Shown: piece after piece, positions 14,651-19,889 of the stretch
How positions within the stretch are numbered: the stretch's first letter is position 1
Layout of the letters: the number at the start of each line of letters is the position of its first letter
Source: Bifidobacterium breve
GTDB taxonomy: Bacteria; Actinomycetota; Acidimicrobiia; Acidimicrobiales; Ilumatobacteraceae
Direction: 5' to 3'
Assembly (NCBI GenBank): GCA_945889715.1
Contig: CAMDCI010000005.1
Location: 1-37,631, forward strand
DNA: 37,631 nt
The notes under the pieces: model-generated
Told to the model about the DNA's origin: nothing
Database searches by the model: none
What the model saw: the letters and a program-made list of their open reading frames with translations, nothing else
Made by a program: the position numbers and the translations under genes

Positions 14651-15031
14651 CTACGGCAGTGATCGGACAGCAATCACATAGGCAATTGCCGTGCTTGCAG
14701 TATGTGTGATCGAGAGATGCCAGTCGGTGACGCCGAGTTCGTTTGCAATCTGCTGAGCCCGACCCGTGACCGCAAGTGTTGGGCGCCCAGAATCGGCTCG
14801 TTGTACCCACACATCATGAAATTCGAAAGCACCGAGCCCGACACCCATCGCCTTCATCACAGCTTCACGCGCTGCGAAACGGGCAGCCAACGAAGCAGTT
14901 GGGTCATCGTGAGGTTCGACGTAATCAAGTTCTTCACTTGTGAAGAGTCGCGACTTCATTGAAGGGGTTCGTTCAAGCGACCGACGAAAGCGATCTATCT
15001 CAACTGCATCGACTCCGATACCAACAATCAT
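14651..15031 (-). CDS. acpS: Holo-[acyl-carrier-protein] synthase
   Basis: MIVGIGVDAVEIDRF, LFTSEELDY, AARFAAREAVMKAMG, HLSITHTASTAIAYVI. Confidence 0.95.
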   Translation of the reverse strand: MIVGIGVDAVEIDRFRRSLERTPSMKSRLFTSEELDYVEPHDDPTASLAARFAAREAVMKAMGVGLGAFEFHDVWVQRADSGRPTLAVTGRAQQIANELGVTDWHLSITHTASTAIAYVIAVRSLP

Positions 15032-15041
15032 CGAGATCTAC

Positions 15042-18000
15042 TCACGATGAAGCGCGGCGCCAGCGGTCGGCCATTTCGCTGATCGGCAAGATCAACAAAT
15101 CTGCCACCGACAATTCGCTCAGCAAATCGTCGCGCATTTCGCCTTCGGTTTCTGAAACCCAGTCGACCAAGCGATCGTAACGACGGTCGTATCCCTGCAA
15201 CACACCTCGCATGACCGGTGCATTGAGCCGATCAAAGAAACGTACGTGCAACAAGGTGATCCCGATTGTCTGACCGGCTTTGACTTCAGGAATAAAGATC
15301 ACTGTGCGTCCGTCACTTCGACCACGAGCAACCAAGACTTCGCGTTCGCTCGCTACTCGACGCTTGGTACCGACCAAAGATGGATTGCGATCAACTCGGC
15401 TCGGAACATCACGAGATAGTCCACCGCGATCAACAATTGCGATCGTTGCACGTGTGCCCGATGGATCGCCATCAATGCTGTAACGCGTATAACCAACAAC
15501 TGCCTCAACAGCTGGATCAAGATCGGCCAAAACCTTGAGCGTGCGATATGCCAAAACATCGCGCCCCGCACCAGTGGCCAATACTTCTTGAACCAAGGCT
15601 CGGTCCATGACGCCTTCATCGCTTCGACTAATTCCGACAGTGACTGTTTTGGCCTGATGCTTGATCGCATCAATAGGTCGTGTGAGTTCTTCAATCGCGC
15701 GAGTCAAAGCCAAAGTGAGATCGTCAATCAATGCCGACGGCGTACCGACTTTGCCAGTTTCATTTTGGTAGGCCTCAACCGGTGATACATCAAGCACAAC
15801 ACGAAGCATTGAAGCTAAGCGCACGGCTGTGCTGGCTTCAAGATGCCCGTCGTAGGTTCCGGCACGCAGAGTTTCATTAAAGCGCTCAGCGGCAATCACT
15901 AAACCAGACCTAACAACTTTCAAAACTGAGTCACCATCGGGGTTATGCAACACTGCAAACTCAACAACTTCTCGAGCTTCACGTAGTGCTCGGGCGAGCT
16001 CATCAATAGCACGAGCAGCTTCGTAGCCAAAAAGATGTCCAACGACTGCGCTCAACACAAAGGCCAACGTCGGATCAACATCAGGAACATCGATCACCGC
16101 AACCGCACTTGAGAAACGTGACTCGGACGCACTGGCGATCACAATAGGAGTGGCCTTGTGGGCGCGATAGATCGCAATCTCTTTGGCAACGTCGTCAGCA
16201 GTACTACCGGCGAGACCAGCTGCACATACGAGGATCAAAGGCTCACACGACAAGTCAATGTGTTTTTTATCTTCAGTGATGTCACACGAAATACTCTTGT
16301 AGCAAAGTTCGCTCAACTTGATACGAACTTCATTAGCCGCAATCGCATTTGGCCCGTTACCTACGACCGCCCAGTAACGCTTAGATGGCGCATATTTGTG
16401 AGCAACTTCAGCAACCTTTGCTCGTGCATCAATGACCGTGCGCATTGCAGTGGGAAGCTCGCGTAACGTCCGCAACAAATCATGCCGGCGTGAATCGGTA
16501 CCAAGCCCGGCCGCAACACTGACTGCACAAGCCAATAAAACACCCGCCGCGACCTGCGCATAAAATGCCTTCGTTGACGCGACACTCATTTCAACATCGC
16601 GACCATCGCTTGTGAACAACACGCCATCAGCCTTGTCACACAAATCGCTACCGCGTCGATTGACAATTGCCAGCACTGACGCACCGCGTGAACGCGCCAG
16701 GTCGACAGTGCGATTGGTGTCAGTTGTCGTTCCACTTTGGCTCACAGCGATGATGAGCGTGTCACTCATATCTAGTTGTAAGTGAAAACCACTGAGTTCA
16801 GTTGCAGTAATCGGATCAACGTCAAGTCCACCAGCACACAGTTCATCAAGAACTGTCGCGCAACTACGACCAGCAATTGCCGCGGTACCTTGGCCGATCA
16901 CCCGAACTTTGCAAATCGCACCCGATGCCAGTTGTTCAATAATGGACGTTGGCAAAGTCTTGGCACCGAGTGATGCGTGTAAGACACCGTCTCGCTCAAT
17001 GATCTTGCCGCGAAGAGTCTTGCGGAACGATTCAGGCGCCTCGCCGATTTCTTTCAGTAAGAAGTGCGGAGCATCACCACGATCGATATCGCGAGTTGTG
17101 ACTTCGGCAGTCACGAGTTCGTTTGACGAAATCGGCAAAATAGTTCCGTCGTAGGCAAGTCGCGTGACGCCAGAAAGATCTCCAGCGAGTGCTCCATCAA
17201 GAATGATGATTTGGCCTTTACTGTCGGTAAGTGACGAAGTGCTGGTGCCCTCACCATCAAGACGGAAGTATGTCGAAGTTTCTTCAACGACTCCGTAGGG
17301 TTCGCTCGCAACAATAAACAGGTCTTCAGCCACGCCAACAAACAATCCTTGACCGCTGCCACGTAGAGCGAACATCAGGCGATCAGGTTGATCGGTAGCG
17401 GCAGCACCAATAGCAACTGAGCCTTCAAATGACGCGACGCTACGACGGAAAGCTTCAACTGTGTCGCCGCAGGTCCGAGCATGCATATTCACTAACGCCG
17501 GAATCACTTTGGCATCAGTGGTGATTTGCCCAGGGAACGAGAGTCCGTGCGCAATTCGTAAATCACCATGATTATCAACATCGCCATTCAGCGCGGCGAC
17601 AACATAGGGATGCGTAGTTTCAAGATCATCAAGCTCACGCTCGCTGTTGACTGGGTGGGCATTGGGTTCGCTAATGATTCCCACACTCGCCCACCGCGTG
17701 TGTCCAACTAATGACAACCGAGCATTGGGATTCGAAAGTGCTAAACGCAACAAGTCATCTTCTTGAACGGCAGCACGCAACGCTTTGGTGTTGTCGCCTA
17801 GCTCACCAATTTCGGCGGCTGCCTTATAAACGAACGACAATGTGTCGTCAATCAAGCGCACCGATCGATTTTGAAAGAGTGCGTCATGTGCTCGTGCATT
17901 CAGGGCAGTCGATACCGAGGGATCATTCGCTGACAAACCATGGCCCCACACAAAAACATGGACTCCTGCCGAATCACGACCACGAACTTCAAGTCGATCA

Positions 18001-18452
18001 AGAGCCGAGAAGGCTTGCTGAATGGTGAGATATCCCGCGGCCGCAGCGATGCCAGCATCGCGTCCAGCCAAATCGCGCACGAGGCGCGCTGTGCGTAGAC
18101 GATCTTTCCCAATTGACCACGTGACATCACGCAGCGCAATGAGTGCAGCGGCATTTCGTTCAAGTTCGTCGGCGTCGGCAACGCTATTTTCAAGACCTTC
18201 GTCAATGGCTGTGATCGTCGCACCTACTTGGTCGAGACGACTTGTCATCGCATTCACTAATTCGTGATTGTCAATCAGGGCAACTGCCCCAGGGACACCC
18301 TTGAGAAGTTCGTTGACCTTGACAAGATGGGACGTGGCATCAACCATATTGCGACCACTGGCAATAGCCGCGTCAAGGAGTTGCACGATTTCGGCAACGG
18401 TGGGGGCACTACGCCGAGCGGGTCGACCGACCAAAGCGATGATGCCACACAT
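15042..18452 (-). CDS. glmS: Oversized glutamine-fructose-6-phosphate aminotransferase (GlmS-like) with two insertions and a C-terminal extension
   Basis: N-terminal MCGIIALVG; glutaminase motifs LEVRGRDSAGVHV, VGHTRWASVG, AALNGDVDNH, TTDAKVIPAL; SIS motifs HFLLKEIGEAPES, VSQSGTTTDT, SVASTKAFYAQ, KLSELCYKSISCDITEDKKH; late HQAKTVTVG resembling the GlmS C-terminal AKSVTVE; next to glmM. Start set to ATG at 18452 so Cys is residue 2. Confidence 0.85.
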   Translation of the reverse strand: MCGIIALVGRPARRSAPTVAEIVQLLDAAIASGRNMVDATSHLVKVNELLKGVPGAVALIDNHELVNAMTSRLDQVGATITAIDEGLENSVADADELERNAAALIALRDVTWSIGKDRLRTARLVRDLAGRDAGIAAAAGYLTIQQAFSALDRLEVRGRDSAGVHVFVWGHGLSANDPSVSTALNARAHDALFQNRSVRLIDDTLSFVYKAAAEIGELGDNTKALRAAVQEDDLLRLALSNPNARLSLVGHTRWASVGIISEPNAHPVNSERELDDLETTHPYVVAALNGDVDNHGDLRIAHGLSFPGQITTDAKVIPALVNMHARTCGDTVEAFRRSVASFEGSVAIGAAATDQPDRLMFALRGSGQGLFVGVAEDLFIVASEPYGVVEETSTYFRLDGEGTSTSSLTDSKGQIIILDGALAGDLSGVTRLAYDGTILPISSNELVTAEVTTRDIDRGDAPHFLLKEIGEAPESFRKTLRGKIIERDGVLHASLGAKTLPTSIIEQLASGAICKVRVIGQGTAAIAGRSCATVLDELCAGGLDVDPITATELSGFHLQLDMSDTLIIAVSQSGTTTDTNRTVDLARSRGASVLAIVNRRGSDLCDKADGVLFTSDGRDVEMSVASTKAFYAQVAAGVLLACAVSVAAGLGTDSRRHDLLRTLRELPTAMRTVIDARAKVAEVAHKYAPSKRYWAVVGNGPNAIAANEVRIKLSELCYKSISCDITEDKKHIDLSCEPLILVCAAGLAGSTADDVAKEIAIYRAHKATPIVIASASESRFSSAVAVIDVPDVDPTLAFVLSAVVGHLFGYEAARAIDELARALREAREVVEFAVLHNPDGDSVLKVVRSGLVIAAERFNETLRAGTYDGHLEASTAVRLASMLRVVLDVSPVEAYQNETGKVGTPSALIDDLTLALTRAIEELTRPIDAIKHQAKTVTVGISRSDEGVMDRALVQEVLATGAGRDVLAYRTLKVLADLDPAVEAVVGYTRYSIDGDPSGTRATIAIVDRGGLSRDVPSRVDRNPSLVGTKRRVASEREVLVARGRSDGRTVIFIPEVKAGQTIGITLLHVRFFDRLNAPVMRGVLQGYDRRYDRLVDWVSETEGEMRDDLLSELSVADLLILPISEMADRWRRASS

Positions 18453-18489: not shown

Positions 18490-19845
18490 TCACACGCATT
18501 TGTTGACAGCAACGGCAACCAGTCGATCAGCAACTTCATCGGCCAGTTGGCTCGTTGGAGCCTCAACCATGACCCGGATCAGTGGTTCTGTGCCACTTGC
18601 TCGCACCAAAACTCGCCCGTTCTCGCCCAAAAGTAATTCTTCAGCGGCGATTTCAGCGGCCAACAATTGCGCAACATCAAGAGGTCGCACTGCAACTTTG
18701 ACATTCTTCAAAACCTGCGGGAAGGTGTGCATCACCGATGTCGCGAGTTGTGAGAATTTCACGCCATCTTTTTCTTGCCGGCGCCGCACCAATTGCGCCA
18801 GAACTATTGATGCCAAAAGTCCATCACCCGTGGTCGCCAGGTCACGATGAATAATGTGACCGCTTTGTTCGCCACCAAGCACAAACCGACCAGACTCCAT
18901 GGCATCAAGCACATAGCGGTCGCCGACGGTCGTTGTCACGACGTTCACGCCTTCTTGATGCATCGCCTGATGGAAACCCAAATTTGACATCACCGTCACA
19001 ACAACGGTGTTATTGGCCAAGGTGTTGTGGTCACGCCGGTCGATCACTGACAAAGCAATCAGACGATCGCCATCAACGACTCGTCCGTTTTCATCAACAG
19101 CAATCAGGCGATCTCCGTCACCATCGAAGGCAAAACCAATATCAACTGAAACGCCGGTACCAGTACCACTCACAAATTCACACAACGTTTGCGGTGATGT
19201 TGCACCGCATGCGTCGTTGATGTTGCGACCGTTTGGTGCATCATTCATTGAGATCACATCGGCACCGAGTCGTTGTAACACCAGTGGCGCAACTTGGCTC
19301 ATGGCTCCGTTGGCCGAATCAATCACGACACGTAAACCAGCAAGTGATCCTTCGCCAAAAAGTTCAACAAGATGATCGACATACAAAGTCACCGCATCGC
19401 TACGACGAACGATCGCGCCAACGTCTGGTGCAGTCGACGTAGCGCCACTCAAAACTTTGTGTACTTCAGATTCGATGCGCTCTTGATCGGCATCGGTCAA
19501 TTTGCGCCCACCTGCGGCAAACACTTTGACACCGTTATCCGAAAACTTATTGTGCGACGCAGTAATCACTACACCAGGAACATTTTCCAGTTGCGCAATC
19601 AATGCAACTGCCGGCGTCGGCAATACACCAAGTTGTTCAACACGCACACCAACCGAAGCCGCACCAGCAGAAAACGCTGCTTCAAGAATGGGTCCAGATA
19701 CTCGAGGGTCGCGAGCGATCACCAAGCGCGGCGAACCAAGAACTGTGCCAACGGCGCGTCCAAGCGCAAGCGCGTATTCGGGAGTGATTTCACTAATAGC
19801 GACGCCACGAACACCATCGGTGCCAAATGTCGGAACAATAGACAT
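18490..19845 (-). CDS. glmM: Phosphoglucosamine mutase
   Basis: PTFGTDGVRGVA, VVITASHNKFSDNGVKVF, FDGDGDRLIAVDENG, LGGEQSGHII, VRASGTEPLIRVMVEA. Confidence 0.96.
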   Translation of the reverse strand: MSIVPTFGTDGVRGVAISEITPEYALALGRAVGTVLGSPRLVIARDPRVSGPILEAAFSAGAASVGVRVEQLGVLPTPAVALIAQLENVPGVVITASHNKFSDNGVKVFAAGGRKLTDADQERIESEVHKVLSGATSTAPDVGAIVRRSDAVTLYVDHLVELFGEGSLAGLRVVIDSANGAMSQVAPLVLQRLGADVISMNDAPNGRNINDACGATSPQTLCEFVSGTGTGVSVDIGFAFDGDGDRLIAVDENGRVVDGDRLIALSVIDRRDHNTLANNTVVVTVMSNLGFHQAMHQEGVNVVTTTVGDRYVLDAMESGRFVLGGEQSGHIIHRDLATTGDGLLASIVLAQLVRRRQEKDGVKFSQLATSVMHTFPQVLKNVKVAVRPLDVAQLLAAEIAAEELLLGENGRVLVRASGTEPLIRVMVEAPTSQLADEVADRLVAVAVNKCV

Positions 19846-19889
19846 ATATGACTGGGGCGGATTGTTTGCGCCCGACATGAAAGTCGCGA

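Follow-up and report, generated by a model that had tools for sequence, protein, structure and literature searches.

A deeply divergent, double-length GlmS replaces the canonical enzyme in many actinobacterial genomes and carries a likely PAS/GAF-like domain beyond its catalytic C-tail

The window (the whole stretch of 37,631 nucleotides that was analysed) holds on its minus strand an ORF for an oversized GlmS homologue, hereafter the giant GlmS, which lies between glmM and acpS as a first reading of the DNA made without database searches (the sequence-only reading) had placed it (Table 1). Its neighbours are rplM, rpsI and glmM upstream and acpS, nnr, alr and tsaE downstream, and no Rfam family was found in the window at the gathering threshold. 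The translation opens with MCGIIALVG, shows no frameshift and contains all the glutaminase and isomerase motifs listed in the sequence-only reading. An in-frame TTG upstream of the ATG would make a protein of 1143 aa; since the nucleophilic Cys of GlmS must be residue 1 once Met is removed, the ATG is the correct start. The first committed amino sugar of the cell wall is the product of GlmS, an enzyme of usually uniform size (~600 residues) that has been investigated as an antibacterial target. The host genome is a MAG, 81% complete and in 227 contigs.

Table 1. The giant GlmS, its adjacent genes and its parts, in positions of the window.
Feature	Residues	Positions	Strand	Remarks
giant GlmS		15042..18452	minus	1136 aa, whole ORF with stop; ATG at 18452
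glmM (phosphoglucosamine mutase family)		18490..19878	minus	upstream neighbour of giant GlmS
acpS (holo-ACP synthase family)		14651..15031	minus	downstream neighbour of giant GlmS
Cys1 strand	1-8	18429..18452	minus	first Ntn glutaminase strand; nucleophile C2 (Cys1 without Met); from alignment to E. coli GlmS
helical insert in glutaminase domain	9-154	17991..18428	minus	AlphaFold2 helices and alignment
second glutaminase addition	167-243	17724..17954	minus	strongly conserved motif at ~209-221 (KAAAEIGELGDN)
glutaminase core	244-400	17253..17723	minus	HTRWAS, NAHP, LNGDVDNH, TTDAKVIP; Pfam GATase_6 247-384, above cut-off; catalytic residue mapping
tandem SIS isomerase domains	461-816	16005..17072	minus	SQSGTTTDT, SVASTKAF, K712/E715/H731; Pfam SIS 517-641; Foldseek
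helical block before C-tail	818-928	15669..16001	minus	between isomerase domain and C-tail
catalytic C-tail	929-942	15627..15668	minus	AIKHQAKTVTVGIS; K935 = E. coli K603; internal, not C-terminal
C-terminal domain, PAS/GAF-like topology	943-1136	15045..15626	minus	found only in giant GlmS

The three extra segments of the sequence-only reading are indeed without canonical counterpart, and could be delimited as 9-129 (121 aa), 816-917 (102 aa) and 941-1136 (196 aa); a fourth addition that it had not listed lies in the glutaminase domain at ~167-200 and 228-242, along with small additions in the linker. The insert after the Cys1 strand is predicted by AlphaFold2 as helices at 19-31, 36-49, 52-59, 63-88, 94-129 and 135-154, mostly with pLDDT >90, its last ~14 residues overlapping the canonical LEYRG helix, and it gave only noise when searched against PDB sequences. 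A Pfam match to UPRTase over residues 22-89 (E 0.069) was below the cut-off and was dropped. Among the giants, mean pairwise identity is 37% in the N-terminal insert and 48% in the 818-928 block, with 5 invariant positions in each; it is 97% in the C-tail, the loop that is modelled with the lowest confidence, and 55% in the C-terminal domain, where 19 positions are invariant and the invariant or nearly invariant charged residues include R990, R1019, K1030, D1047, R1049, E1056, H1069 and E1101.

In order to map the catalytic residues, we aligned 52 diverse giants with E. coli GlmS as taken from the MG1655 record. The glutaminase residues C1 (C2 of the giant ORF), R26, G27, R73, W74, H86, N98, G99 and D123 (E. 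coli numbers) are invariant in all 52, as are S347, Q348, S349, T352, V399, K485, E488 and H504 of the isomerase and A602 and K603 of the C-tail, the last two corresponding to A934-K935. E715 and H731 stand 16 apart, the spacing that the sequence-only reading had given for the Glu488/His504 pair. E. coli C300, S303, E351 and G505 are replaced in the 52 giants by invariant Q521, A524, T575 and I732. S303 is a phosphate contact in E. coli, and Ala is also found at its position in 2 of 24 canonical GlmS sequences; given this replacement, the giants may possibly have a shifted sugar specificity.

Structure prediction, which had been suggested together with the sequence-only reading, gave the GlmS fold for the enzyme as a whole and a PAS-like order of elements for its C-terminal domain, the latter with weak structural matches. 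The model of the whole protein (AlphaFold2, 52-row alignment) has a pLDDT of 87.3 and a pTM of 0.76, and Foldseek matches it over the whole enzyme to E. coli GlmS 2j6h (E 8.9e-30, TMt 0.82) and to human GFAT-1, and its isomerase region 461-816 to GlmS isomerase domains (TMt 0.84-0.88). The part 818-1136 was also modelled alone (pLDDT 91.4, pTM 0.60). In the predicted model the C-terminal elements run alpha-b-b-alpha-alpha-b-b-b and then helices, which is the PAS order and would suit a five-stranded antiparallel sheet with helices between its second and third strands, and almost all of the top 50 Foldseek matches of the C-terminal part in the PDB are PAS, GAF, Cache or LOV sensors, each of them weak and none below E 1e-3; the top one is 7jsr (L-GDH180), with E 2.4e-3 and rmsd 22. 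Pfam gave only scattered weak matches in the C-terminal parts of the 52 members, none of them to PAS or GAF, a C-terminal profile gave only noise against PDB sequences, and the viral fold library yielded no significant match. Sequence searches often fail to detect PAS domains (PMC8175468). The C-terminal domain is likely PAS/GAF-like, the assignment to the sensors being drawn from the predicted topology and the consistency of the many weak Foldseek matches.

Over the 602 columns of the core comparison, the canonical GlmS of the class shows 44% identity to E. coli GlmS; the core of the giants shows 26% to E. coli GlmS, 30% to the class canonical form and 66% among themselves. In the core tree the giants form one clade (SH-aLRT 100) and E. 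coli GlmS groups with the canonical sequences; the branch between the two sides, of ~10 changes per column, is saturated, so that the grouping can be trusted and the length cannot. The NCBIfam GlmS models are the best matches to the giant, though well under their cut-offs (226.6/418 and 245.4/381 bits). Because it scores 226.6 bits against the TIGR01135 equivalog with its cut-off of 418, the giant lies outside the canonical model and belongs to a separate subfamily, which these sequence comparisons indicate to be a deep one. A local canonical GlmS with recent insertions was also considered as an origin, and is contradicted by the very divergent catalytic core. On a tree of GlmM, S9 and L13 the giant/canonical label must change at least 5 times, compared with a mean of 18.9 when shuffled; many forks of this tree are weak, and its well-supported branches force only one change of label.

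A scan for relatives, with one genome per species, gave at least 580 relatives, the best 80 of which are full or nearly full length with 56-98% identity in the best segment, and an ORF of about 1110-1150 aa is present in more than 100 loci, single-contig genomes included. Named hosts include Ilumatobacter and Aquihabitans (Acidimicrobiales, Acidimicrobiia), and from these carriers we infer that the sampled class is the Acidimicrobiia. The titles 'Bifidobacterium breve' and 'Ferrithrix thermotolerans DSM 19514' on contigs L004, L019, L026 and L049 probably belong to misnamed records. In a census of 296 genomes of the class, where a match over the TIGR01135 cut-off was counted as canonical and one with E <1e-50 as giant, 133 hold only the giant, 153 only the canonical form, none both, and 10 neither or fragments; within each sampled family only one of the two forms appears to occur, and the giant-only genomes include some in a single contig, such as G002, G003, G027, G102 and G137. 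Both forms share the slot rplM-rpsI-glmM-GlmS-acpS-nnr-alr, the giant being found away from it in G388, G322, G441 and G040. A few families outside the class (f63, f70, f90 and f93) hold giants as well as canonical-only members, the instances being L134 (G388), L137 (G441), G406, L135 (G322), L136 (G329) and G450, and the position off the glmM-acpS slot in L134, L135 and L137 looks like horizontal transfer. The part 818-1136 is present in 26 of 249 genomes of the phylum, once each and always at giant GlmS loci, and was never found as a separate gene among the 249. In G131, G264, G198 and G219 the giant gene is broken up into two or more matches; the pieces in G131 overlap by a few bases on one contig, as in a frameshift or a true split into two proteins.

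The giant is very probably the functional GlmS of its cell, and we predict it to be, most likely, the only L-glutamine:D-fructose-6-phosphate amidotransferase of the organism. It is the sole SIS protein found in its own genome, where a second, canonical glmS, which the sequence-only reading had proposed to look for, was not found; the genome also carries MurA and the uridylyltransferase half of GlmU. NagB is the other known source of GlcN6P, and the NagB/6PGL family (PF01182) was found neither in this genome nor in the giant genomes G071, G008, G019, G031, G039, G003, G009 and G024, several of which are complete, closed single-contig G003 among them, which argues for the giant as the cell's GlmS. 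Of the two readings proposed earlier, that of the cell's GlmS with added domains therefore gains from the sole SIS protein, the mutual exclusion, the shared slot and the missing NagB, and that of a neofunctionalised paralogue is unsupported because no genome pairs the giant with a canonical copy. One could still suppose that a neofunctionalised amidotransferase acts on another sugar phosphate and that another enzyme supplies GlcN6P, given a core with no more than 26% identity to E. coli GlmS and the departures from canonical residues (Q521, A524, T575 and I732) at or near the sugar site; however, the strict exclusion with canonical GlmS from the same glmM-acpS slot, the lack of NagB in several complete genomes, one of them closed, and the retention of nearly all catalytic residues make this quite improbable. 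It has even less probability that the giant acetylates its own product and in this way makes up for the acetyltransferase that GlmU lacks. The GlmU of the same order does stop before the acetyltransferase active site, but genomes outside the order can have a full-length GlmU together with the giant (G003, G020, G048 and G072), members of the order with canonical GlmS have a truncated GlmU too (G047 and G290), and no acetyltransferase family was matched by Pfam in the giant or the 52 C-terminal members; compensation was rejected, as the form of GlmS and the truncation of GlmU vary independently. The chance that separate genes were joined into this ORF by misassembly or in annotation, a doubt raised at the outset and in keeping with a source MAG of this completeness and contig number, is next to nil, for at least 80 further loci, with 56-98% identity, show the same arrangement over its full length, ORFs of similar length reach into single-contig genomes, and the C-terminal part never stands as a gene of its own; the conservation of the full-length ORF refutes the fusion.

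As for what the added parts do, a regulatory role is plausible from the models, and the giant would most likely represent a GlmS subfamily with built-in allosteric control. On whether its terminal domain is a small-molecule sensor our judgement is evenly balanced. The more specific proposal, of a PAS/GAF-like sensor tethered by the C-tail in which a metabolite (e.g. UDP-GlcNAc or another pathway product) would control tail closure, is held tentatively; the suggestion of an anionic ligand (e.g. a sugar nucleotide) is a guess. Somewhat doubtful, too, is that the giant is the cell's GlmS but its extra segments are only structural, serving as oligomer scaffold, for stability or for partner binding, with no sensing. 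Helices of low conservation, such as packing surfaces would be expected to have, make up both the N-terminal insert and the 818-928 block, and the C-terminal part has no single significant Foldseek match; against a purely structural role, the C-terminal domain is better conserved (55%, with its 19 invariant positions), has many conserved charged residues, and has structural neighbours that are nearly all ligand-binding sensors.

Canonical GlmS (E. coli; TIGR01135 / PRK00331) has in common with the giant the Cys1 glutaminase, the double-SIS isomerase, the predicted fold and the glmM neighbour, but the E. coli enzyme has 609 aa compared with the 1136 aa and four large additions of the giant, and it ends at its C-tail, as GFAT also does, whereas the C-tail of the giant is internal. 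NagB-II and the SIS deaminases (NF046059, 8eol) share the SIS fold but are without the glutaminase domain, and the giant matches their model at 64 bits, much more weakly than the GlmS models. Human GFAT-1 (Foldseek E ~1e-29) is, like the giant, a GlmS fold with extra segments linked to regulation, but the giant differs from it in the helical insert past the Cys1 strand and the domain past the C-tail; the extra loops of GFAT are in the glutaminase domain and the interdomain linker, and UDP-GlcNAc is bound by the isomerase domain (PMC7000685). Mycobacterial L-GDH180 (7jsr) is likewise a metabolic enzyme of actinobacteria whose greater size comes from helical motifs and sensor-like domains of PAS/ACT type, although its catalytic core is unrelated to that of the giant and the structural match is weak; its PAS and ACT-like domains were described as possible metabolic sensors (PMC8175468). 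We found no relevant report of an enlarged GlmS in this actinobacterial group in the open-access literature.

By the standard GlmS mechanism, the giant would turn fructose-6-phosphate and glutamine into GlcN6P, with the Cys1 Ntn glutaminase passing ammonia to the double-SIS isomerase and the C-tail Lys completing the sugar site, and the extra modules would be lineage-specific additions. In GlmS, Trp74 and the C-tail form a sealed ammonia channel upon binding of both substrates (PMC7948480). As the sugar pocket of human GFAT-1 is covered by its last nine residues, and tags at the C-terminus disturb its activity (PMC7000685), a tail buried inside a longer chain is a marked change. The C-tail of the giant is bracketed by the helical block and the C-terminal domain, and the latter may bind a small metabolite and act on the adjoining mobile C-tail lid, thereby tuning activity, the simplest reading being that the domain would position or release the C-tail on ligand.

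Many environmental actinobacterial lineages carry the giant, and in roughly half of the sampled class genomes this deeply divergent, double-length GlmS replaces the normal gene in the same chromosomal place. The family models, with the giant below the TIGR01135 cut-off, miss the sole GlmS in 133 of the 296 class genomes, which could make such bacteria look like amino-sugar auxotrophs. Since GlmS normally ends with the C-tail, which covers the active site, the domain added after this tail offers a clear, testable case of a tail becoming a regulatory handle. Feedback in the giant would be new, because feedback by UDP-GlcNAc has been described as the main distinction between eukaryotic and prokaryotic GFAT (PMC7000685); if true, a bacterial GlmS would have built-in allosteric feedback, thought distinctive of the eukaryotic enzyme, through a different architecture.

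Apart from GlmS, the search of the 296 genomes also bears on GlmU. The GlmU of the own genome (G000:C8:3720-4811; L152:1486-2622) has 378 aa, compared with 456 aa in E. coli, and ends just ahead of the acetyltransferase active site. Among the listed members of the order to which this genome belongs, GlmU is short (matched over ~2-344 of 452 positions) or gives a weaker match, whichever GlmS they carry, and most genomes of the other orders of the class have a full-length one; the comparison also covers L225-L232 versus L233 and L234. Sixteen genomes of this order, each with a completeness of 93% or more, match GlmU no better than at ~1e-12 to 1e-19 (G039, G075, G145, G155, G167, G202, G204, G227, G253, G255, G264, G277, G287, G288, G292 and G295), and in these the uridylyltransferase step may be done by another enzyme.
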